Part shown: piece by piece, positions 3,889-43,176 of the stretch
How the letters are laid out: every line of letters starts with the position of its first letter
Numbering within the stretch: position 1 is the first letter of the stretch
Virus record (IMG/VR): IMGVR_UViG_3300026484_000351
Location: 1 to 64,000 of that record
DNA from: a virus
Length of the DNA stretch: 64,000 bases
Direction: 5' to 3' (one strand)
Position numbers and translations under genes: made by a program
Notes under the pieces: generated by a model
Database searches by the model: none
Told to the model about the DNA's origin: nothing
What the model saw: only the letters and a program-made list of their open reading frames with translations

Positions 3889-4443
3889 ATGAAAACATTT
3901 AAAGAAATGGCTCTAAATGAAGCCGCGAAAGAGTTGGATAAATACGCTTTAAGAATAGACGAACAATTAACTTATCTTTATATTAATGATAATGAGTTAC
4001 AAGAAGCACTTGAAATACACAATATGGAAGGAATGGAAGATAAAATTTTATTTGTATTTGGTATTAAACAAGATATGGGATTAAATGTATTTGAGGCTGT
4101 TTATGCTCAGAAGGGATATGGTCCTATTGCTTATAAAACAGCAATGCAAATGATGGGGGAAATGGCCCCTTCTCAGGACAGTAGAATTACTAAATCAGCG
4201 CAAAAAGTTTGGGAAGAATTTTTTAGCGGAAAAGGCTCAAAGGATGTAAATAAAGAATTATTTGGAAGTACAGAAGGTAATTGGCAGAGATATACCTATT
4301 CCCTTAAAAAAGAATTAGACTATGTTACGAATATTAAAAATAATGATAACTTTATTGGTAAAGACCCTTATAACGAAAAAACTAATATGCTTAATGAAGT
4401 AGCAGACGGACTTCTTATTAACAGTATGAGAGCCATATATTAA
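3889..4443 (+). CDS. Candidate head-internal protein with capsid-targeting start
   Basis: 184 residues starting MKTFKEMALNEAAKEL. T4 internal proteins begin MKTYQEFIAEA, which targets them into the prohead and is cut by the gp21 protease after L/I-x-E. Here LNE/A fits that site at residue 11. The rest has no recognised family. It follows the endolysin after AAATAGGAGACAAAT, inside the late block. Packaging in the head is inference from the N terminus and context. Confidence 0.65.
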   Translation: MKTFKEMALNEAAKELDKYALRIDEQLTYLYINDNELQEALEIHNMEGMEDKILFVFGIKQDMGLNVFEAVYAQKGYGPIAYKTAMQMMGEMAPSQDSRITKSAQKVWEEFFSGKGSKDVNKELFGSTEGNWQRYTYSLKKELDYVTNIKNNDNFIGKDPYNEKTNMLNEVADGLLINSMRAIY

Positions 4444-4607: not shown

Positions 4608-5078
4608 ATGATAACATTTAGTGAATACTTAGTAACAGAAGCAGAAGAGGATAATACTTTTTATGCAAGATCCAATATAGGCAATACAGAAGTACTATAT
4701 CAAGTAGCAATGAGAGCAAAAAGTGCAACTGATTTAGAAAAGGGAATGAAAAAGATGTTCAGTAAATTTCCTGATAGAGAGAAAATTGATTTGAAAAAAG
4801 TTAATTGGAAAAGTATATATACTGAATTAAATGAGGTAGCTCAAGGTACAAGTATACTAATCGAAGGATTTAAAACTAAAGAATACGATGAAATGATGGA
4901 CGGTCTAGATACTGATAAATTTACTAGTGCAATGTATGATTGGTTTCAAGATAATTATCCTGATGCACCAATATATGGTGGAGATGCAACTCCAGATGAA
5001 TTTATTGATTTATTAGACCAAGAAAACGATGGTAAAATGATTAAGAAATTCTATAAAGACATGAAGAAATTTTTATAA
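4608..5078 (+). CDS. Candidate head-internal protein with capsid-targeting start
   Basis: 156 residues. The ATG at 4608 follows AAAAGGAGAAGAAAA and gives MITFSEYLVTEAEEDN, close to the T4 capsid-targeting peptide, with a possible cleavage after VTE. An in-frame ATG at 4575 would add a basic leader that spoils this pattern. The remainder is acidic and rich in aromatic residues (FQDNYPDAPIYGG). No known family; probably carried in the capsid with the DNA. Confidence 0.62.
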   Translation: MITFSEYLVTEAEEDNTFYARSNIGNTEVLYQVAMRAKSATDLEKGMKKMFSKFPDREKIDLKKVNWKSIYTELNEVAQGTSILIEGFKTKEYDEMMDGLDTDKFTSAMYDWFQDNYPDAPIYGGDATPDEFIDLLDQENDGKMIKKFYKDMKKFL

Positions 5079-5119: not shown

Positions 5120-6142
5120 ATGACAGGTATATTTGATGAGTTAAAAAAAGCAAATAACAACTTAGAAATAGATGATTTGACTAAGGATAAACTTCTTAGT
5201 CAAATTGACACCCCAAAAAATCAAGAAGGCTTCTACTTAGACGCCTTTGAAAATGTAATTTCATTCAACGGAATTAGGCAATTAAAAAAACCCCACACAA
5301 AATTAAAACTTAACAAATATCAACAACAAGAAATTCTAGCATGTCATAATGACTATTTTTATTTTAGAAGAAATTATTGCAAAATTTTAACTAAATCTGG
5401 TATTGGGAGACCCGAACCAAGAGGTTATCAAAAACGGCTTGAAAATGATCTTGTACAAGGTGATGATGTTATAGCATTCTTCCCAAGGCAAAGCGGGAAA
5501 ACAGTTACCATTGCAACATATTTATTATGGCGAGCACTTACTTCTGAAAATATTAATATCGGAATAGCAGCAAATGTTATGTCACTAGCAACAGAAGTCC
5601 TAGATAAAATCAAGAAAATATATATTGAAATGCCTATTTGGTTACAACCTGGATTAATGAGTTGGAATAAAAGAAGTATAGAACTTGATAACGGTTGTAA
5701 AATCATGACAGCTGCAAGTAATTCAGATGCTTTTAGAGGGTACTCATTATCTATAATGTATGTCGATGAAACGGCCTTTATTAGAAACAATCTTTTTGAA
5801 GAATTTATGGATTCAGTTATGCCTGCTATGTCTGCTATTCAGGATAGCCAGGCTATTTTTTCGAGCACTGCTTCGGGTTTGAATCACTTCTACTGGATGG
5901 TAGAAGGCGCGAGAAAAAAAGAAAACGGTTATAATCTTTGTGAAGCAAAATGGCAAGAAGTCCCTCGTTTTCACAAAGATGGTAGACCAAAAACTCCAGA
6001 AGAATTTAAATCAGAACAAGTAGCAAAGAATGGACAGACTCATTTCGAACAAAATTTCGGTAATTGTGTGGGATATGATACACTTATAGATATAGAAAAT
6101 TTAGGAAGTATAAAAATAGGAGATTTATATAATTTGTTGTAA
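5120..6142 (+). CDS. Large terminase N-terminal half fused to a split-intein N fragment
   Basis: Residues 1-315 are the ATPase half of a T4 gp17-type terminase: Walker A PRQSGKT (122-128), Walker B IMYVDET (212-218), coupling motif STASG (249-253) and HFEQNFGN at the junction. Residues 316-340 (CVGYDTLIDIENLG...DLYNLL) are an intein N fragment starting with the nucleophile Cys; the frame then stops. The C half resumes at 7277. The very short 25-residue N fragment is the layout of the atypical AceL-TerL split intein. Protein trans-splicing should rebuild a packaging motor subunit of about 602 residues. Confidence 0.92.
   Translation: MTGIFDELKKANNNLEIDDLTKDKLLSQIDTPKNQEGFYLDAFENVISFNGIRQLKKPHTKLKLNKYQQQEILACHNDYFYFRRNYCKILTKSGIGRPEPRGYQKRLENDLVQGDDVIAFFPRQSGKTVTIATYLLWRALTSENINIGIAANVMSLATEVLDKIKKIYIEMPIWLQPGLMSWNKRSIELDNGCKIMTAASNSDAFRGYSLSIMYVDETAFIRNNLFEEFMDSVMPAMSAIQDSQAIFSSTASGLNHFYWMVEGARKKENGYNLCEAKWQEVPRFHKDGRPKTPEEFKSEQVAKNGQTHFEQNFGNCVGYDTLIDIENLGSIKIGDLYNLL
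6065..6139 (+). other. Split intein, N fragment (25 residues)
   Basis: It begins with Cys after N315 of the terminase and contains only intein block A (C-x-x-x-D-T...I-x-I-G-D-L). It closely follows the known AceL-TerL N fragment, which also starts CV and has 25 residues. Confidence 0.9.
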
Positions 6143-6230
6143 AAATAATTAATATTCTCATTAATTATTTGGATAGGAAAAACATAAGTTATGCTAAATT
6201 TGTAGATATAAAGATGAGAAATGGTAGAAT

Positions 6231-6238
6231 TATAAATA
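6231..6238 (+). promoter_or_regulatory. Possible late promoter for the intein endonuclease
   Basis: TATAAATA lies 44 bases before the endonuclease start in a spacer with no other frame. It could let the nuclease be made late, apart from the terminase. Confidence 0.35.
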
Positions 6239-6281
6239 TAGATAAACCCAAGTGTTAAATTCCAAAACGGAGAAGAAATAA

Positions 6282-7304
6282 ATGAAGATGTGTGTGGATT
6301 GTTCAAAAGAAATTAAAGCCAAAAATAAATCAAATATTAGATGTTATTCTTGTTCAAACAAAATAAGATACAAAGATAAAGAGCATCTTAAAAATATGAA
6401 AGAATCAATTAGAAAATCAAGAAAAAAAGAACTAAATTATGATGGTGATTTGTATGATTTAGATAAGCTTAAGGATGTTTTAAAAAATTTTGATATAAAT
6501 AAATATACAGGCTCAGGGAAAAACAGAACTTTTTATAAAAATGAACCCAAAATAATGTTTTCTTTAAAAAAGCACTCCAACCACCTTGCTTTGAAATATA
6601 GCTATATAAATAGATGTATTTTATCTGATTATACTTTAGTAACAAAGGGTATAGACTTGTGCATTTGTAGTTGCAAGAAAACTTTAAAATGGGATTATTC
6701 TAAAAAATCATTTCAAAAAGCACCAAAATGTTGTAAATTAGGACCTAACTCTATAGAACGCAAAATTTTAGAACATGGTGAAGAAAAGGGTAAAATTATT
6801 TATGAAGAATTTTGTAAAAAAAATGGGGAAGTTAGGAAGGGTTTTTTAAGTTTAGAATACTTTAAAGAGAAATATGATACCCAAGGCCAAGAAGAGTATG
6901 ATAAATATTGGCAATTTAATTTTTCTAAAAGAAAACAAGTAAATTTTAGTAAAATTAGCCAAGAATTGTTTAATAGCATAATCATAAATAAAAAAATAGA
7001 TAAAAGTTATGTTAGATTTGCAACTTTTAATGATAAAGGTGAAGTGAGAATTAATTTTAATAAAAAAGATAAAGAACTGATTGGTGAGTCAAGAGTTTGT
7101 ATGTATTTAGACTTTGTATATAAAGATAAAGTGATCGAATTTGATGGCGCTTATTGGCATAGAAATTCGGAAGAACATGACAAAATAAGAGATGAAATTC
7201 TTAAAAATAAAGGTTATAAAATTTTAAGGATAAAAGAAAAATATTATAAAAAAGATAAAAATAAGGAAATAGAAAAATGTTCAAACTTCTTGATAAACCC
7301 TTAA
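6282..7304 (+). CDS. Free-standing homing endonuclease inside a split intein, Vsr/PD-(D/E)XK-like
   Basis: 340 residues. The N terminus has a zinc finger (CVDC at 4-7, CYSC at 22-25) and a basic linker. A second Cys cluster (CICSCKK...CCK) lies near 127-150. The C-terminal 60 residues show the Vsr-like core: LDFVYKDKVIEFDGAYWH, then R-D-x-x-L-K-N-x-G-Y-K-I-L-R-I. Such nucleases are known between the halves of fractured split-intein genes. It overlaps the C-fragment gene by 28 bases. Its target is expected to be an intein-free terminase gene. Confidence 0.82.
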   Translation: MKMCVDCSKEIKAKNKSNIRCYSCSNKIRYKDKEHLKNMKESIRKSRKKELNYDGDLYDLDKLKDVLKNFDINKYTGSGKNRTFYKNEPKIMFSLKKHSNHLALKYSYINRCILSDYTLVTKGIDLCICSCKKTLKWDYSKKSFQKAPKCCKLGPNSIERKILEHGEEKGKIIYEEFCKKNGEVRKGFLSLEYFKEKYDTQGQEEYDKYWQFNFSKRKQVNFSKISQELFNSIIINKKIDKSYVRFATFNDKGEVRINFNKKDKELIGESRVCMYLDFVYKDKVIEFDGAYWHRNSEEHDKIRDEILKNKGYKILRIKEKYYKKDKNKEIEKCSNFLINP

Positions 7305-7594
7305 AAGTAAAGACACCTAATGGTTATAAAACCTTTACAGGAATACAAAAATATACAAAAAAAACTTATTTGTTAATCACTACTATAGGTGAAATAGAAA
7401 CAGCAGAGCTTCATAGATTTGTAGTAGATGGTAAAGAAATCTTTGCAAAAGATTTAAAGGTTGATGACAGTTTACAAACTGAAACAGGTCACACAAAAAT
7501 AAAAAAAATAATTAAAGGTCCCGTCAAAGATGTTTATGATTTAACTAATGTGGATGGAGAGATATATTATACTAATGGAATATTAAGTCATAAT
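7277..7594 (+). other. Split intein, C fragment (106 residues)
   Basis: It starts with its own ATG and ends LSHN before Thr. Length and motifs match the roughly 104-residue C fragment of AceL-TerL. Confidence 0.9.
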
Positions 7595-8458
7595 ACATTT
7601 TTAGGTTCTTCAGCTACTCTTGTATCGGGAACAGCACTTAAAAATATCACCCCTATGAAAGACGAAGATATAATTTTCAATTCATTATTTGACGGACTTA
7701 AAGTTTATCAAGAAGTAAAAGAAGGCCATAATTATATTTTAACTTCAGACCCTAAACAGGCTGGGATAGATAGTATAGGATTGCATGTTATTGATGTAAC
7801 AAATATTCCTTTTGTGCAAGTAGCATCTGCTAAACTAGATGAAAGTTTTTTAGTTATTCCTAATAGAGTATATGATTTAGGACATTATTATAATGATGCT
7901 TATGTTGTTCAAGAAAATAATATTGAAGCTAATCTTATTAATACTTTGCATGATCAACTGGAATATGAAGGTGAAATTTTTAGAGAAAGGAAAACTTCAG
8001 GTAAAGGTTTTAAGAATATTTGGGGCATCAGAACAACCACAAAAACTAAAAAAATGATGACTTCTTTTCTTAAAAAATTTGTTGAAGATGGTCTTTTAGA
8101 AATAAACGACAAAGCTACACTTGATGAGATGTTTAACTTTATAGAAAAGAAAAATGGAACTTATAGTGCAGAAGAAGGCTATAAAGATGACTTGGTTATG
8201 AGTTTAATGCTTGTGTTTGCACCATTTTTTGATATTAAAAATTGGGATAACTTCAAAGGGTTTAGTTCATTACTTGAGAAACGAGCTGGACAACAAGAAA
8301 AAGAAGAAAAAGAAACTGCTGAGTTTTTAGACTTAGGATTTGCACCTGATGATAATACAACTGTTTCTCCTTTTACTGAGGGTGCATGGGATGAAAATGA
8401 CTTCGGTACGGATGCAATGGAAATGTATCAACAAGATATGGACGATAGAGGTTGGTAA
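7277..8458 (+). CDS. Split-intein C fragment fused to the large terminase nuclease half
   Basis: Residues 1-106 are the intein C fragment: TPNGYKTFTGIQK, block B ELHRFVVDG..DLKVDDSL, and the C-terminal block YTNGILSHN. T107 is the +1 extein residue. Residues 107-393 continue the terminase with TFLGSSATLVSG and the RNase H-like nuclease domain; acidic residues D158 (SDPKQ), E217 (NNIEAN) and D304/D305 (YKDDL) fit the gp17 active site. Thr at +1 differs from Cys in AceL-TerL. Both halves must be made for DNA packaging. Confidence 0.92.
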   Translation: MFKLLDKPLKVKTPNGYKTFTGIQKYTKKTYLLITTIGEIETAELHRFVVDGKEIFAKDLKVDDSLQTETGHTKIKKIIKGPVKDVYDLTNVDGEIYYTNGILSHNTFLGSSATLVSGTALKNITPMKDEDIIFNSLFDGLKVYQEVKEGHNYILTSDPKQAGIDSIGLHVIDVTNIPFVQVASAKLDESFLVIPNRVYDLGHYYNDAYVVQENNIEANLINTLHDQLEYEGEIFRERKTSGKGFKNIWGIRTTTKTKKMMTSFLKKFVEDGLLEINDKATLDEMFNFIEKKNGTYSAEEGYKDDLVMSLMLVFAPFFDIKNWDNFKGFSSLLEKRAGQQEKEEKETAEFLDLGFAPDDNTTVSPFTEGAWDENDFGTDAMEMYQQDMDDRGW

Positions 8459-8487: not shown

Positions 8488-9225
8488 ATGAATCTTAATC
8501 TTGGAGACAACAGTCACAATAGTGAATATGAATTATTTAGAAGTACTTCCGAAGAACTCATATCAATGTATGGAGTCCCGATAAAATATTTAATAACCGA
8601 AAAAATAAATCAGGATAAAATCTTTGGAGAGCATAGCCATATCAAAATAGATAATGAGGCTATCCACCAACTATATGCTATGCCATCCGCAACAGATATG
8701 TGGGAAGGAGATAGTAATTTATTTAGTAAATTTGGTTTACAAAATTTGGATACTATGAGCATTTTTATTTCTAGAACAGATATGGAAAAAATTCATCCTG
8801 AGATAACTAACAGAGAAGGAAAAGCTACAGTTAATAACCTGCCTAATGGAAATTTAGTTACTTTTGAAAATAATAAAATCATGGAAGTTACTAATTTCGA
8901 ATTGTCAAGCACTGAAACTGGTAATAATAATGTTTTTACTTCAGATAGAGATAAAAATGTTTATAAATTAACTCTTAAATCTTATTTCTACAATTCGGAT
9001 GACACTTCAAAAGCAGATGAAATAACCGATAGCGCAAAATTTGAATATGAAGATTTTGGTAACTTAGATGCTATTTTTAGAGATGACGAAGAGCAAAAAG
9101 AAGAAGTATTAACAAGGTCAGAAACGCCAGTTATGGAAGATGAAGTTATTTATCCTGCTGAAGAACGAGTAAAACCAGTTAGAAGAACAGTAGACGAAAA
9201 TAATCCATTTGGCGATTTCGGATAG
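8488..9225 (+). CDS. Neck protein, T4 gp14 type
   Basis: 245 residues. The middle reads DKIFGEHSH...WEGDSNLFSKFGLQNLDTMSIFIS, which lines up with IFGED...YEGD.SFYSKFGMEVQDEVTLSI of T4 gp14, and YGVPIKYLITE matches the segment before it. gp14 joins the head to the tail. The last 50 residues are acidic, ending DENNPFGDFG. It has its own late box and lies beside the terminase, as the equivalent genes do in T4-like phages. Confidence 0.78.
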   Translation: MNLNLGDNSHNSEYELFRSTSEELISMYGVPIKYLITEKINQDKIFGEHSHIKIDNEAIHQLYAMPSATDMWEGDSNLFSKFGLQNLDTMSIFISRTDMEKIHPEITNREGKATVNNLPNGNLVTFENNKIMEVTNFELSSTETGNNNVFTSDRDKNVYKLTLKSYFYNSDDTSKADEITDSAKFEYEDFGNLDAIFRDDEEQKEEVLTRSETPVMEDEVIYPAEERVKPVRRTVDENNPFGDFG

Positions 9226-9235
9226 GAGAACAAAT

Positions 9236-9766
9236 ATGAAAACATTTCAAGAAATGGCAGTACAAGAAGATTTTAAATATACTGGCAAACTCAAGCCTTA
9301 CCAAGTACTTTTATTTACGGCATATACAGAATTTCTACAAGATTATTTTGAGACAAATATTACTCTTAAAATTTCTTTTAGAAAACCTAAGAAGGATTAC
9401 TTCGGTGATGTAGACTTAAACAAGCTTAAAAAGAAAAATTATACAATAACTATGGAAAATACTCCTTATGGGATACTAGGTAGAATAGGGCACGAGTTTA
9501 CTCATATATCACAATACCTTAAAGGAGAATTAAATACTTCAGATAATAAAAAATTTATTACTTGGAAAGGTGAGGATTATATCTCAATAGAAGATTATAA
9601 CAACATTAAAGATATGCCAACCTATAAAGCGCTTCCTTGGGAAACTGAAGCATATAGCAATCAGGAAAAAATACCAGTGTTATTTAAGAAATCGAAGTCC
9701 CTTAAAAATATCTTAGGGCAAAATACTACTTTAGATTTTGGTGTAGAAAACGACCTATGGTTTTAA
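9236..9766 (+). CDS. Capsid-tagged HExxH metallopeptidase
   Basis: 176 residues from the ATG after GGATAGGAGAACAAAT; an upstream in-frame ATG at 9209 lies inside the previous gene. It starts MKTFQEMAVQED, like a T4 capsid-targeting peptide. Residues 84-91 are IGHEFTHI, a zinc-protease HExxH helix, and PWETEAYSNQ at 134-143 supplies a likely third ligand. The simplest reading is a zinc peptidase packaged in the head and injected with the DNA, or one that matures the prohead. No signal peptide is present. Confidence 0.72.
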   Translation: MKTFQEMAVQEDFKYTGKLKPYQVLLFTAYTEFLQDYFETNITLKISFRKPKKDYFGDVDLNKLKKKNYTITMENTPYGILGRIGHEFTHISQYLKGELNTSDNKKFITWKGEDYISIEDYNNIKDMPTYKALPWETEAYSNQEKIPVLFKKSKSLKNILGQNTTLDFGVENDLWF

Positions 9767-9811: not shown

Positions 9812-10231
9812 ATGAAAAATAAAGAGATAGGCGTTACGCCTACTGGAGTTTCTTTTAGCGATGCATCTCAAGAAAAACAATTAGCTGATTTACTTAAAAT
9901 GAAAGCAGAAGAAAAACTAAAGTTATCAAAAACAGTTGGCCTAAGAGTGCTTAGTAAATCTAAATTTTATTATAGTAGTACTGGTGACCTTAGAGAACAT
10001 ATTGCAAGTTATAAAGGTTATGCAATAATGATAAAACAAGAAAAAATTTCTGAAGACTATAATGAAAAAGAAGTCTTAATGTTTCCTTCTTTAATTTCTT
10101 TAATTGACCTCAAAAAATTAAAGAAAGTAAATGGAAACATAGTTAGAAAATTACAACCAAAAACCATCCACGAGTATGAGAAAATTGCTTTAATATATGG
10201 AGTGCTCACTAAAATAGACGAGGGTTTATAA
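9812..10231 (+). CDS. Hypothetical protein
   Basis: 139 residues, Lys/Leu-rich, with an early helical stretch (EKQLADLLKMKAEEKLKLSK) and a mixed second half. It begins after AAAGGATAAGAAT; one base separates it from the next gene. No family recognised. Confidence 0.6.
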   Translation: MKNKEIGVTPTGVSFSDASQEKQLADLLKMKAEEKLKLSKTVGLRVLSKSKFYYSSTGDLREHIASYKGYAIMIKQEKISEDYNEKEVLMFPSLISLIDLKKLKKVNGNIVRKLQPKTIHEYEKIALIYGVLTKIDEGL

Positions 10232-11606: not shown

Positions 11607-12716
11607 ATGTTAGAACTTAATGAAACTGCCTCTATATTAAATATAGATAAAGATGGGAAAATTGTTTTTTCAAAAGGAGATATTTTGAAAAATATCTCAG
11701 ATGCTGGTGAAAACTTTATTGAAATTGGTAAAGTAAAATCGAATATAGGCACAATAACCAAAAAGAATAGCGATTATACTTTAGAAGTCCCTAAAAATTT
11801 TAATGGAACTATTGAATTATTGATGAAGGCAACAGATGGGTATATTGAAGTGCCAAAAAAAGCTCTAATTACAGTTCAACTAGAAAATAATAATCCCAAA
11901 ATTACTTTTATTAATCCTAGTTTTTTGGAAGATGAAGGAGTTATTGTTAATTTAAATATTCTTGATGTTGAGAGTACAACTGTTGAAGTTTTTCAAAGTT
12001 CAAATAACGGAAACTGTATAATAAACACAGATAGAAATTTAGAATATACACCAGTAAAAGATTATAATGGGGCACAAGAAATTACGATTAAAATTTCTGA
12101 TGGTAATTCAACCACATATAAAACAGTTGAAATAGAAGTATCTCCCGTAAAAGATAAACCTAGTATTAAAATCTTACAAGAGATAACAATAGATAAAGAC
12201 TCAGAAGAAATTATAAGTTTTGATATGCAAAATATTAACGATGATATTATAAATTTTGAAGTTTACACACCAAATAAGGGAATAATAATTGTAGATGGGT
12301 CTCAAGTAACATATATTCCTAATGAAAATTATAATGGAACAGATGTCTTAACTATTAAATATACAGATGGGATAGCACAGAAAACAAGCACCGTTAATAT
12401 TAATGTTCAAAGTGTAGATAATAAATCTTATATTAATGTGGTAAACGGAGTGCATATGGTAGAAGACAAAGTACAAGAAGTATTAATAACGGTCGGGAAT
12501 TTTGAAGGTTTAAGTATTTTTAGTGCAGAGGCGGATAATGGAGTTTGTATTGTGGATGAGAGTGGGAACATTGTTTATTCACCAAATGTAGTTTACAATG
12601 GAACAGAAACAATAGTAATTTCTGCAACAGACGCAGATAGTGTAACAGTTTCTAAAAATGTAAATGTACAGATAGATAAAATGATAGATAAACGAAACCC
12701 ATACAGAAATGGTTGA
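11607..12716 (+). CDS. Ig/cadherin-like tandem repeat surface protein
   Basis: 369 residues made of about four repeats of 85-95 residues. Each ends near a Y-(T/I/S)-P-N/V-x-x-Y-N-G-T/A-x-x-(I/L)-T/V-I-K/S-x-(S/T)-D-G motif typical of tandem-95 or cadherin-like domains. No signal peptide, which is normal for virion proteins. It may decorate the capsid, like T4 Hoc, or belong to tail fibres. It starts after AGAAGAGGATTAT. Coding-like sequence continues out of frame beyond the TGA, so the present end may be a truncation. Confidence 0.7.
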   Translation: MLELNETASILNIDKDGKIVFSKGDILKNISDAGENFIEIGKVKSNIGTITKKNSDYTLEVPKNFNGTIELLMKATDGYIEVPKKALITVQLENNNPKITFINPSFLEDEGVIVNLNILDVESTTVEVFQSSNNGNCIINTDRNLEYTPVKDYNGAQEITIKISDGNSTTYKTVEIEVSPVKDKPSIKILQEITIDKDSEEIISFDMQNINDDIINFEVYTPNKGIIIVDGSQVTYIPNENYNGTDVLTIKYTDGIAQKTSTVNINVQSVDNKSYINVVNGVHMVEDKVQEVLITVGNFEGLSIFSAEADNGVCIVDESGNIVYSPNVVYNGTETIVISATDADSVTVSKNVNVQIDKMIDKRNPYRNG

Positions 12717-20789: not shown

Positions 20790-21188
20790 ATGGTATTCAA
20801 AAAACAAAAAGAATGGTTTAGTTTACAGCAATGCATTGATAATCCAGATAAATTATATATTTTTGGTGATAATACATTTAGAAAAGGCACTTGTGGACAA
20901 GCGCAGATTAGACATTGTGATAATTCCTATGGAATTTGTACAAAATGGGCACCCAATACAACCGATGGTGCTTATTTTTCCGATACCATTAACTGTTTAG
21001 AAATAGTTGAAAAAGATATTTTGACTTTAATTAAATTATCTAAAGAGGGAAAATATAAGGAAATTATTTTTCCTTTGGAAGGAATAGGTTCAGGTTTATC
21101 CAAAATGCCTCAAAAATGTCCTTTGCTTTATAGAAAAATGAATAGATTATTTAAAAAGTACTTTGATATATCTTACAATAATTTATAA
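20790..21188 (+). CDS. Macrodomain-like protein
   Basis: 132 residues. LYIFGDNTFRKGTCGQAQIR, then NSYGICTKWAPN, and IIFPLEGIGSGLSKMP resemble the ADP-ribose-binding layout of macrodomains (N-x-x-G-x-x-x-G-G...P-x-x-G-x-G). It lies right after Thg1 and about 3 kb from the NADAR gene, suggesting a set handling ADP-ribose or RNA ends. It could also be a DUF4326-like or other NAD-related fold. Confidence 0.55.
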   Translation: MVFKKQKEWFSLQQCIDNPDKLYIFGDNTFRKGTCGQAQIRHCDNSYGICTKWAPNTTDGAYFSDTINCLEIVEKDILTLIKLSKEGKYKEIIFPLEGIGSGLSKMPQKCPLLYRKMNRLFKKYFDISYNNL

Positions 21189-21191: not shown

Positions 21192-21207
21192 AACTTAAAG
21201 GATGTTA

Positions 21208-21993
21208 ATGGAAGATTCTAATGTAGTTTTAAAACTAACGGGAATAATTAATGAACTAACTAACATTATTGCTGATTTAACCAAACTAAGAAAATTGCCC
21301 ACAGAAGTAGATTTTGAAAAAATAAATACAACTGAAAAAATAGTTGAAGTTATTAAAGAAGAACCAGTAGAAGTAGTAAAAGAAATACCAGTAGAAGTAA
21401 TAAAAGAAGTAGAAAAAATAGTTGAAGTTGAAGTAGTAAAAGAAATACCAGTAGAAGTAATAAAAGAAGTAGAAAAAATAGTTGAAGTTGAAGTAGTAAA
21501 AGAAATACCAGTAGAAGTAATAAAAGAAGTAGAAAAAATAGTTGAAGTTGAAGTAATAAAAGAAATACCAGTAGAAGTAATAAAAGAAGTAGAAAAAATA
21601 GTTGAAGTTGAAGTAATAAAAGAAATACCAGTAGAAGTAATAAAAGAAGTAGAAAAAATAGTTGAAGTTGAAGTAATAAAAGAAATACCAGTAGAAAAAA
21701 TAGTTACTAATAAACCATATTCTGAGATTGAGGAAATGAAGATAAAAGCGCCTAGTGGTCCGGCACCGCACAAATTCCCGAAACACCTTTACTATAAGGA
21801 AATAGAATTAAGTCAATATCAGGGTGAGTTGTTATATAAACCAAGATATATTCTTCAACCCAATCAAAAGGCGTACGGAATTCAGGATGAATGGAATGTA
21901 ATTGTAACATTTAAAGAAGACAAATATATTACAGAGCATCCTCAGGAACATTTTAATAATCACATTTTAACAAGGAAACATAATGGCAATTGA
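21208..21993 (+). CDS. Val/Glu/Lys/Pro repeat protein
   Basis: 261 residues from ATG 21208; the ATG at 21202 overlaps the AAAGGA ribosome site. After a 40-residue helical start come about 5.5 copies of a 20-residue unit (KEIPVEVIKEVEKIVEVEVV), then an 85-residue globular end with KFPKHLYYKEIELSQYQGEL. Such repeats form extended linkers, often in virion or cell-surface proteins. The late box supports a structural role. Confidence 0.65.
   Translation: MEDSNVVLKLTGIINELTNIIADLTKLRKLPTEVDFEKINTTEKIVEVIKEEPVEVVKEIPVEVIKEVEKIVEVEVVKEIPVEVIKEVEKIVEVEVVKEIPVEVIKEVEKIVEVEVIKEIPVEVIKEVEKIVEVEVIKEIPVEVIKEVEKIVEVEVIKEIPVEKIVTNKPYSEIEEMKIKAPSGPAPHKFPKHLYYKEIELSQYQGELLYKPRYILQPNQKAYGIQDEWNVIVTFKEDKYITEHPQEHFNNHILTRKHNGN
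21371..21696 (+). repeat. 60-bp tandem repeat, about 5.4 copies
   Basis: In-frame 60-base unit inside the repeat protein; copies differ mainly by GTAGTA versus GTAATA. Near-identity suggests recent expansion by slippage or recombination. Confidence 0.95.
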
Positions 21994-22210: not shown

Positions 22211-22711
22211 ATGGCAAAAGAACAAAGTTATGGAATATGCCCATATACAATTATATTAGGAAACTTTTTTGTTTTATTAAATAAAACATCTGAGGAAAGC
22301 TATTATAACTTCTTTAAAGGTAAAATCGAAGAAGGAGAAACTACTGAGCAATGTGCTCAAAGAGAATTTTTTGAGGAAACAGGAGTTAAAGTAGATTCTA
22401 AAGATTTTGAAGATTATTTCTTTCAAAAATCCTCTAGAAAAGATGTAGGTATTTTTCTTGTTGATTGGGCAAGATATCAACAATTTCCTTTTTATTTTCA
22501 AGAAAAAGAAATCTGGAGTGCGACTTGGGTTAGATTAAAATCTATTGAGGTTTCTAAAAATCAACAAGAAATTATTAATTCTATTGAATTATTGTTTAAA
22601 CCACGGTTTCAGCAGTTAAGGAATATTTGTTTTCCAACAGCTAATATAAATAACATAAATGAACTTACCAAAAATGATAGAACTAATAAGTTTTCTTCGG
22701 TTAAAAAGTAA
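22211..22711 (+). CDS. Nudix hydrolase
   Basis: 166 residues with an intact Nudix box at about residues 36-58: GKIEEGETTEQCAQ, then REFFEETGV (G-x5-E-x7-R-E-U-x-E-E-x-G-U). The family hydrolyses nucleoside diphosphates linked to other groups, such as modified dNTPs, NAD derivatives or RNA caps. The 50 C-terminal residues are Asn-rich and probably disordered. The substrate cannot be told from sequence. Confidence 0.85.
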   Translation: MAKEQSYGICPYTIILGNFFVLLNKTSEESYYNFFKGKIEEGETTEQCAQREFFEETGVKVDSKDFEDYFFQKSSRKDVGIFLVDWARYQQFPFYFQEKEIWSATWVRLKSIEVSKNQQEIINSIELLFKPRFQQLRNICFPTANINNINELTKNDRTNKFSSVKK

Positions 22712-30831: not shown

Positions 30832-31743
30832 ATGGAAGAAAATGTCATTGCAATAGATCTTGGGTACAGCTCAAGCAAGGTTGCATATAAAGATAAAATA
30901 GCGAAATTTCCAACAGCAATTAGTTTTGCTACGGATATTGGTGCCGCTTATGGGGAGGAGAATATTTATGAATTTGAAGGTGACAAGTACCATGTCGGTA
31001 AAGAGGCAGTAGATTCTGAAGCTTTTACAACCTCTGAGTATAAATTCCTTTTAAAATTTGCGCCACTTTTAATATTTCATATTTTAAGTAAGTTTGAAAA
31101 AGCAGATTTAGACGAACCAATTATTGTTAAAACAGGTTTAGCTATTGTTGATTGGGGCAAAAAAGACGAGTTTATAGAAAGAATTTCAAATATTAAAGTG
31201 AATGATAAGACAATTGAAATAATTCCGCAATTAATCCCTCAAGGTGCAGGTTGTGCGGTCGACTGGACTCACTATAACAATAATGACGAGTTTCCGGATA
31301 AGCTAACAGTTATTGATATAGGAAATAATACTATTAACCTTGTGCATTTTGAGCACGGAAAACCTCAAAGAAAAAATATGAAAAGTTATCCTGGGCATGG
31401 TGTTTCTAGTATTATTAAACCTTTTACAAGTTTTATGGAAAATAAATTTGCTGTAACATTTTCAGAACAAGAGTCTACCCAGACTTTCGATAAAGGCGAA
31501 TTTAGGTATAACGGAGAATTACAAGATGAAGTAACAGAAAAGATTACTGAATTAAAATCTCAATTTGTTAAAAAAATATTTCAGAGTGTTTTAGTAAATG
31601 ACAAAAAATTGCTTGCAATGTCAGATGTAGTTCTTATCGCTGGTGGTGGTGCATATTTACTTCAAGATATTCCTTTTCCACCAAATGTAGAGTTTGTAGA
31701 AGCACCAATGGAATTTTCAAATTGTAGAGGTTATTTACTATAA
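30832..31743 (+). CDS. Actin-like ATPase (ParM/Alp type)
   Basis: 303 residues. Phosphate-1 motif VIAIDLGYSSSKVAYK, phosphate-2 LTVIDIGNNTINLVHF, and adenosine motif VVLIAGGGAYLL match actin/Hsp70-fold segregation ATPases. Phage members form filaments that position DNA or, in large phages, other structures. No partner DNA-binding gene of ParR type is obvious; the next two small basic genes are candidates. TTATAAT upstream (about 30796) may be its promoter. The 134 bases after it hold only a 15-codon frame. Confidence 0.72.
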   Translation: MEENVIAIDLGYSSSKVAYKDKIAKFPTAISFATDIGAAYGEENIYEFEGDKYHVGKEAVDSEAFTTSEYKFLLKFAPLLIFHILSKFEKADLDEPIIVKTGLAIVDWGKKDEFIERISNIKVNDKTIEIIPQLIPQGAGCAVDWTHYNNNDEFPDKLTVIDIGNNTINLVHFEHGKPQRKNMKSYPGHGVSSIIKPFTSFMENKFAVTFSEQESTQTFDKGEFRYNGELQDEVTEKITELKSQFVKKIFQSVLVNDKKLLAMSDVVLIAGGGAYLLQDIPFPPNVEFVEAPMEFSNCRGYLL

Positions 31744-41364: not shown

Positions 41365-42543
41365 CTATTCTATCCTAGCCAGTCTTAATGCTTCATTTAG
41401 TATGTTTATAGAAGCATTTATATCTCTATCTTCTTCAAAACTGCATTCAGAACATGAGTATATTCGCTCTTCGAGCGATAAACTCTCTTTTACTGAACCA
41501 CATCTTGAACAGGTTTTAGAGGAAGGATAATAAGTATCTATTCTAGATATACTAACTTGGTTTTCGTTAGCTTTATACTCTATTTTAGATACTAAATCAC
41601 TCCATGCTATATTAGATATAGCTTTAGACAATCTTCTATTTTTAATCATATTTTTTACTTGAAGACTTTCTAAACCTATAAAATCATATAGATTGATTAG
41701 TTTTTTGGATACCTGATGATTTATAGTGTTTCTTGAATTCTTTATTTTATTATGCACCCTAGCTACTTTTAATCTAGCTTTATTTCTATTTTTGCTTCCT
41801 TTCTTCTTTTTACTTAGTTTTCTTTGTTCTAATTTAAGTTTTCTTTGGTACTTATATGTTAATTTATGATTTTCTATAGTATATCCATCAGAACATATTA
41901 TCATATCTTTAAGACCTAAATCTATACCTACTTTCTTATTGGTTTTCTTTCTATTATTCTTTACTTCTATCTTATGTGTTATGGTTATTCAGTACTTATC
42001 TAGGTTATCTTTTTCTATAGTAAAACCTGTTATTTTACCTATATTATGGTTTGTTTTATGTTTCTTAAATTTTATTTTATGGTCTTCTTTAGTATAAGAT
42101 GACTTATTGCTTTTATTTAATTGTATATGGTTATCTTCTATTTTAACTCTAGAACCAGCCTTCATACCTATAGTCTTTTTAGATGTCTTTTTACTCTTAA
42201 ATTTAGGATATCCTCTATCTGGTTGTTTTATAAATTCCTTCATACCAAGATATAAATTAGATAAACTAGATTGTATAAAATCATTAGGTAATTTATTAAT
42301 AAAAGAATATTCTTCTTTTAATTTAGTACTAAAACCTACTATACCAGTTTGATTAGGTATCTTAGGTCTCACTTGACCTTTATTTTTGCCTTTTTCTATA
42401 GTGTACACACCAAAATAATTATCTTGTATCTTACCTAAAACATTATTATAGGTAAATCTATAGAGGTTAAATTGTTTATCTAATAATGCTTTTTGTTTAG
42501 CATTAGGATATAGTCTATATTTGTTTGTTCTTACTAATTCCAT
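41365..42543 (-). pseudogene. tnpB: TnpB RNA-guided nuclease with one in-frame TGA
   Basis: Two frames, 42543-41989 and 41988-41365, are in phase and separated only by TGA at 41991-41989 (after LDKY). Together they make a 392-residue TnpB: N-terminal RNA-binding part MELVRTNKYRLYPNAKQ, RuvC D in GIDLGLKD, E in FIGLESLQV, zinc finger CSRCG...CSEC, and D in DRDINASINIL. All catalytic residues remain. A TGG or other sense codon changed to TGA would explain it; a C-terminal start at MIICSDG would lose the first Asp. Confidence 0.82.
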
Positions 42544-42576
42544 ATTTAACCCCTTTATATTTATTTATACAATTAT

Positions 42577-43176
42577 TTATATAATATTATTTTTAAGATT
42601 TTCTTGTACAGATTTTAACATCTTTCTTCTATTACTATACATTTTCATACTAAAATGATGTATTATAGATATTAAATCCTGTGTTAATTCAGTTTGAAAA
42701 TCTTCTTCTTTGGTAAAATTTATATATACTATATCTGTTCCATAACTACTAAACCATTTTTCTATATAATTATAGCCAAATCTAGTAAGTCTATCTTTAT
42801 AAGAAATATATATAGTATCTATATTACCATTTTGTACTTCTTTAATAAGAGCATTAAAACCCTTCCTATCTTCATTCATTCCAGAAGCTATATCTTTATA
42901 TACCTTATCTACTATAATACCTTTAGAAGCAATAAATTCCCTTAATATTTTTTCTTGCTTTTCTAAGTCTTCTTTTTGTTTAGTATTACTTACTCTACAA
43001 TATATAACTTGATTTTTATCTTTGGGTTTTGTGAGCATTAAACTATCTATATCATATAAGAAATTCCTACTATTTAATTCTTTGTATTTAACCTTTCCTT
43101 GTCTTCTATAATTATTTAAAGTTTGACTTGTAATGCCCAAAATCTCTTTTATTTTCTTAGCGTTTATATAACTCAT
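42577..43176 (-). CDS. tnpA: IS607 transposase, serine recombinase
   Basis: 199 residues. N-terminal MerR-like helix-turn-helix (KKIKEILGITSQTLNNYRRQ), then the small serine recombinase domain: VIYCRVSNTKQKEDLEKQ with the nucleophile Ser, and YKDRLTRFGYNYIEKWF with the Arg pair. This order, DNA-binding first, is typical of IS607 TnpA. It appears intact, so the element could still move even with a broken tnpB. Confidence 0.88.
   Translation of the reverse strand: MSYINAKKIKEILGITSQTLNNYRRQGKVKYKELNSRNFLYDIDSLMLTKPKDKNQVIYCRVSNTKQKEDLEKQEKILREFIASKGIIVDKVYKDIASGMNEDRKGFNALIKEVQNGNIDTIYISYKDRLTRFGYNYIEKWFSSYGTDIVYINFTKEEDFQTELTQDLISIIHHFSMKMYSNRRKMLKSVQENLKNNII

Follow-up and report, generated by a model that had tools for sequence, protein, structure and literature searches.

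The locus

The window, meaning the whole stretch of DNA that was analyzed, covers the first 64 kb of a viral record of 96,768 bp, which is classed as linear and may therefore be a fragment. On its plus strand, flanked by the gene for a gp14-like neck protein and a small gene conserved in relatives, lies an ORF of 176 codons (ORF 9236) that translates as MKTFQEMAVQEDFKY...GHEFTHISQY...PWETEAY (Table 1). An in-frame TTG at 9209 was considered as its start and judged less likely, since it would overlap the neck gene, whereas the ATG has a ribosome site of its own. The form predicted to arise by cleavage after E11 would be basic, with a computed mass of ~19.5 kDa and a computed pI of 8.5. With a single domain in 176 aa, the protein does not resemble the polyvalent proteins, which carry several unrelated domains in a long polypeptide.

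Table 1. Features at and around ORF 9236 (window coordinates; a slash in a sequence marks the predicted cut)
Feature	Position	Strand	Remarks
Second CTS-tagged protein, MKTFKEMALNE/A	3889..4443	+	Top of 576 starts in T4-CTS score
Third CTS-tagged protein, MITFSEYLVTE/A	4608..5078	+	CTS score; resembles L011:2172-2384 (MKTFKEFLFE)
Terminase large subunit, two ORFs (5120-6142, 7277-8458)	5120..8458	+	ORF translations
Neck/head-closure Hc2, gp14-like; left edge of slot	8488..9225	+	phrog_679, E 4.6e-26
Shine-Dalgarno AGGAGA	9224..9229	+	Directly before the ATG of ORF 9236-9766; strong ribosome site
CTS-tagged, zincin-like metallopeptidase gene (putative)	9236..9766	+	176 aa; phrog_16532, phrog_10499 and pT24 matches
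Putative CTS, MKTFQEMAVQE	9236..9268	+	T4-CTS rank 2/576; predicted prohead-protease cut after E11
HEFTH, residues 86-90	9491..9505	+	Two metal ligands and general base (predicted); H86, E87, H90 invariant
PWETEA, residues 134-139	9635..9652	+	E136, predicted third metal ligand; start of helix 134-151
Conserved small gene (KSKFYY protein); right edge of slot	9812..10231	+	49-64% identical in L011, L012, L015

A predicted zincin-like domain of an unnamed phage family

The sequence-only reading had noted an HEFTH motif in this protein, and the motif holds up: between divergent homologues in phages it varies little or not at all, which takes it beyond chance. In PHROG profile searches, the protein matches two unnamed families, phrog_16532 (E 4.9e-11, residues 39-146) and phrog_10499 (E 3.4e-10), and the profile match together with the conserved HExxH...PWE places it in phrog_16532. 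By tblastn, a homologue is found in Tenacibaculum phage pT24 (BPT24_172, E 5e-7), with weaker matches in Vibrio, Synechococcus S-SM2, Stenotrophomonas DLP_6, Xanthomonas XacN1, and Caulobacter phages; H86, E87, H90, Q93, L99, W110, P134, W135, E136, and A139 are invariant in the window protein and seven of these relatives. An IMG/VR search from the S-SM2 protein (SSM2_042) gave 80 cyanophage-type loci. In an alignment of 41 sequences, H86, E87, H90, Q93, W110, P134, W135, and E136 are invariant throughout. Position 138, by comparison, is Glu in 29 of the 41 and Gln in the other 12, which rules out E138 as a metal ligand and makes the invariant E136 the better candidate for the third one. The downstream Glu-rich WETEAY segment that had been pointed out beside the motif is thus conserved as PWETEA, but its richness in Glu matters only as E136.

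Relationships beyond this family are distant. Pfam offers no family for the window protein even at E<=10, a single-protein search of IMG/VR returned no close peptidase homologues, a search with the pair alignment of the window and pT24 proteins returned only pT24, and phage records held no DNA-level relatives of the window. The best matches of a profile search of PDB sequences were designed proteins at E 0.013, judged meaningless.

An AlphaFold model built from the 41-row alignment (mean pLDDT 73.6, pTM 0.75) has residues 1-16 disordered (pLDDT below 50), the HExxH on a helix of residues 80-95, and E136 opening the helix 134-151. Structure prediction for a gluzincin-type site had been proposed as a check, and the outcome is favorable: model and alignment agree on an HExxH helix and an invariant Glu ligand on the long helix that follows, as in zincins, and the gluzincin-type layout is supported at the level of a predicted structure. 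The model also resembles the published description of zincins, namely a three-stranded sheet, an HExxH helix, and a second helix with the Glu (PMC5512222). The pT24 protein gives the best match among viral models (E 1.1e-8), and several phage proteins come next, some of them named SprT-like; against the PDB, Foldseek found no match at E<=0.001. Zincin-like hydrolases fill most of the top rows from VIA-align, at Z 5-7.1, modest values that lie below the tool's secure level, with YbeY-type chains at 7.1-6.4 and IRAP/ERAP, Wss1 (6.0), PprI (6.0), selecase, and Spartan (5.3) at 6.2-5.2. The SprT/Spartan/Wss1 and IrrE/PprI (M78) peptidases show a weakly similar fold layout (Z 5.2-6.0), but the window protein cannot be placed with SprT-like (PF10263) or IrrE/M78 (PF06114) proteins, since it is matchless in Pfam and its relatives stay under the curated cut-offs. 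No kinship with botulinum toxin or lethal factor is claimed; such chains are only weak fold neighbors.

A probable T4-type capsid-targeting start

The 96.8-kb record has 576 ATG starts, and residues 2-8 of each were compared with the N-termini of T4 ipI, ipII, and ipIII, using starts taken from the T4 record (MKTYQEFIAEA for ipII and ipIII, MKTFKEF for ipI). ORF 3889 (MKTFKEMALNEA) ranks first, ORF 9236 (MKTFQEMAVQED) second, and ORF 4608 (MITFSEYLVTEA) sixth. The three starts align at T3, F4, E6, residue 7, residue 9, and E11, and the three genes lie within 5.9 kb, around the terminase and neck genes. All three have Glu at position 11, which moves the predicted cut one residue beyond that of T4. 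Besides this offset from position 10, the tag of ORF 9236 departs from T4 in having Met rather than an aromatic residue at 7 and Asp after the cut; in other respects, it reads as an N-terminal targeting propeptide of the T4 kind (10-19 residues, like MKTYQEFIAE). The first 10 residues of T4 IPIII are enough for packaging; residues 4 and 7 of the T4 CTS have a part in targeting, and residues 8 and 10 in processing (PMC9026906). Counted over this phage together with three close relatives, the motif occurs at 15 of 187 starts with a Shine-Dalgarno sequence and at 7 of 693 others (Fisher p 2e-6). Both the rank and this enrichment bear out the earlier claim of a capsid-targeting start, and the N-terminus of ORF 9236 is very probably a real CTS.

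Most homologues, including the cyanophage, Vibrio, Xanthomonas, and Stenotrophomonas members, have no such tag; the cyanophage and Vibrio members score at about 0 or below. The members of phrog_16532 and phrog_10499, such as BPT24_172 and SSM2_042, thus share the HExxHxxQ, W, PWE domain with ORF 9236 but differ from it in mostly lacking the CTS, so that the CTS looks like an addition to the peptidase domain. The start of the pT24 homologue (MKTILEYFDPILTDMVFE/S, CTS score 15) is a weak candidate tag, and apart from it no second protein joining a CTS to the phrog_16532 domain was found among the homologues compared. The ART-PolyVal proteins of pT24 begin with MKTFKKWF; this stretch was taken for the beginning of the ART domain proper and was not counted.

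An exchangeable slot next to the neck gene

The interval from the neck gene to the small gene can be followed in three relatives, L011, L012, and L015, whose neck genes are 56-63% identical to that of the window (63% in L011, 56-58% in L012). In L011 and L012, the slot holds a protein that starts with MKFKDYITE/G or MIKFKEFINE/S and continues with HG...EG-G-Y...ETAE-YG. These two proteins are 47% identical to each other, and that of L011 matches ART-PolyVal (PF18760) at E 7.8e-6 with 27.1 bits, below the cut-off of 31.2; an AlphaFold model of the ART-like slot protein (pLDDT 46.5) was too poor for use. Both relatives also have one further ORF between the flanking genes. L015, with a terminase 72% identical, has an empty slot; between its terminase and neck genes, positions 5903-6514 encode, from a GTG start, a different HExxH protein with a CTS-like beginning (MKFKEFIDLD...GHESIHRIQ), which resembles DUF2268 weakly (E 0.0014, under cut-off) and has no match in phage records. 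Almost the same place thus carries different enzyme-type domains, each preceded by a shared kind of tag. With an HExxH protein, an ART-like protein, or nothing in the slot, gene content here is variable and swapped, as for T4-type internal proteins, and the exchange suggests a repertoire of interchangeable enzymes that enter the host together with the viral DNA. A search of bacterial genomes with the neck profile gave no match.

Other CTS-like starts are seen in the same relatives. Six more small ORFs of this kind lie around the terminase and neck genes of L011 (17-2384 and 7337-7981) and are candidate internal proteins. On the minus strand of L012, the ORF at 11961-12692 has the CTS-like start MNFKDYINEK and a VLYRGFSG stretch that recalls ADP-ribosyltransferases, with no supporting Pfam match.

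Packaged and injected, or not

As a whole, these observations lead us to favor the reading of ORF 9236 as an internal head protein of the T4 type, injected into the host, encoded in an exchangeable slot, and carrying a single-domain, gluzincin-like zinc peptidase as its cargo. Late in infection, residues 1-11 would bind the prohead core, as expected of a CTS; a gp21-type protease would then cut after E11 and leave the basic protein among the DNA, with which it would be ejected in the manner of the T4 internal proteins and Alt. A metal would be held by H86, H90, and E136, with water activated by E87, and early in infection the peptidase would cleave a host protein, most likely one of defense or regulation, as the variability of the slot would suggest. 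The parts of this reading differ in strength: packaging in the head is probable, the product is likely an active metallopeptidase, and action on a host protein after entry is somewhat favored. The original proposal, a packaged HExxH enzyme with a role like that of T4 Alt, is thus supported in part and has strong circumstantial evidence in the CTS rank, the CTS cluster, and the ART-like slot proteins, although gp21 and gp23 were not found in its own 96.8-kb record, a fragment. Both are present in a 193.7-kb relative, G001 (gp21 at E 1.8e-33, gp23 at E 1e-82; neck 50% identical), where the gp23 N-terminus, ...KALSE/ATVDADV, contains a likely LSE/A maturation site, and a gp21-type prohead protease is also present in pT24.

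The lack of a tag in most of the family raises the alternative that ORF 9236 is an ordinary SprT/IrrE-like metallopeptidase, made during infection and left unpackaged, with an N-terminus that is CTS-like by coincidence. The tagless cyanophage, Vibrio, XacN1, and DLP_6 members, annotated where at all as SprT- or IrrE-like, would fit this. We regard it as unlikely, since the tag is exactly what the other members lack and ranks second among 576 starts, the gene is clustered with those of two other CTS proteins in 5.9 kb, and relatives fill the same slot with other CTS proteins.

A packaged peptidase might also work inside the prohead, as a second maturation peptidase that processes head or internal proteins at assembly. 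A conserved but uncharacterized zincin of group 1 jumbo phages has been put forward for additional cleavages in maturation (PMC7824862), P1 DdrB undergoes processing ahead of its packaging in a reaction attributed to its own zincin domain (PMC5512222), and the gene adjoins those of the neck and terminase. No peptidase homologue was found in G001, which makes the gene look accessory; this absence from a phage that has gp21 and gp23, together with that from the slot of the three closer relatives, argues that it is not a core maturation enzyme, and elsewhere the slot holds an ART-like protein. We regard a role in assembly as unlikely too. Very improbable is a packaged, noncatalytic binder on a zincin fold, such as an inhibitor of a host defense enzyme, for which T4 IPI*, an injected nonenzymatic restriction inhibitor, is a precedent (PMC3012670), since H86, E87, H90, and E136 are invariant family-wide, as for a working metal site.

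Comparison with known systems

An injected zinc peptidase, the reading we prefer, has partial parallels. Like T4 IPI, IPII, and IPIII, ORF 9236 has a probable CTS and a small, basic predicted mature form and is unconserved and swapped between relatives; unlike them, it has an enzyme-type domain and a predicted cut one residue later, and we infer its packaging from sequence. The T4 proteins are themselves unconserved, and other basic proteins with CTS-like starts occur in related phages (PMC9026906). T4 Alt resembles the proposed role as a head-carried enzyme that acts on the host at entry but differs in its chemistry, and the ART-like slot proteins of L011 and L012 come closer to Alt. For N4 vRNAP (C1 domain), P1 DdrB, and plasmid ArdC/TraC1, ejected or carried zincin domains have been described or predicted (PMC5512222, PMC12633501). 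These share the HExxH and the Glu on the next helix with ORF 9236 but belong to large multidomain proteins that lack a T4 CTS, whereas ORF 9236 encodes a stand-alone protein of a T4-like phage. For the zincins of jumbo phages, functions in maturation or on host targets have been proposed (PMC7824862). Searches of an open-access library turned up no stand-alone HExxH domain in any described internal protein of T4-like phages, which is not proof of absence. The earlier remark that no such internal protein was known agrees with these searches for T4-like phages, but it needs qualification by the ejected zincins known or predicted elsewhere, in N4 vRNAP and P1 DdrB.

The internal proteins of T4 are an unconserved, arms-race set; one of those described inhibits restriction, one is an ADP-ribosyltransferase, and the others have no clear role. 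If our reading is true, a CTS-tagged, stand-alone zinc peptidase adds proteolysis at entry to T4-like biology. A broader conjecture, which we put forward tentatively and at somewhat less than even chances, is that this lineage keeps a fixed slot from gene 14 to the small gene in which enzyme classes (zinc peptidase, ADP-ribosyltransferase) are swapped behind one capsid tag, delivering interchangeable host-modifying enzymes that include a protease cutting a host or defense protein at entry. The slot comparison also provides a search rule for injected effectors, namely a CTS start between conserved head genes.

Other genes in the record

The two terminase ORFs look like a fractured gene with a split intein: their ends resemble intein halves (CVGYDTLIDIE..., ...YYTNGILSHN), and an endonuclease-like ORF (6282-7304, FDGAYWH) lies between them. 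The C part of the terminase is 69-72% identical in L015 and L016, and L011, L012, L015, and L016 have related but different terminase arrangements.

By eye from the translations, NAMPT-like, NMN adenylyltransferase-like, NAD kinase-like, sirtuin-like, macro-domain-like, and NUDIX genes are seen at 66870-68438, 69149-69973, 71233-72075, and 73684-73965 of G000, beyond the window, and at 20790-21188 and 22211-22711 within it. Together they look like a set of NAD+/ADP-ribose genes, and ART-like cargo is found in relatives of this lineage. Read in the same way, G000 75486-79121, also beyond the window, encodes a small heat-shock protein, a full-length DnaK, a GrpE-like protein, and a DnaJ-like protein in a row, a chaperone set unusually complete for a phage. 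The protein encoded at 21202-21993 contains several near-perfect EVVKEIPVEVIKEVEKIVEV repeats. On the minus strand at 41365-43176, an IS607-like serine recombinase gene adjoins a TnpB-like gene that is apparently split into two ORFs, and 30832-31743 encodes a ParM-like actin homologue in this T4-like phage.
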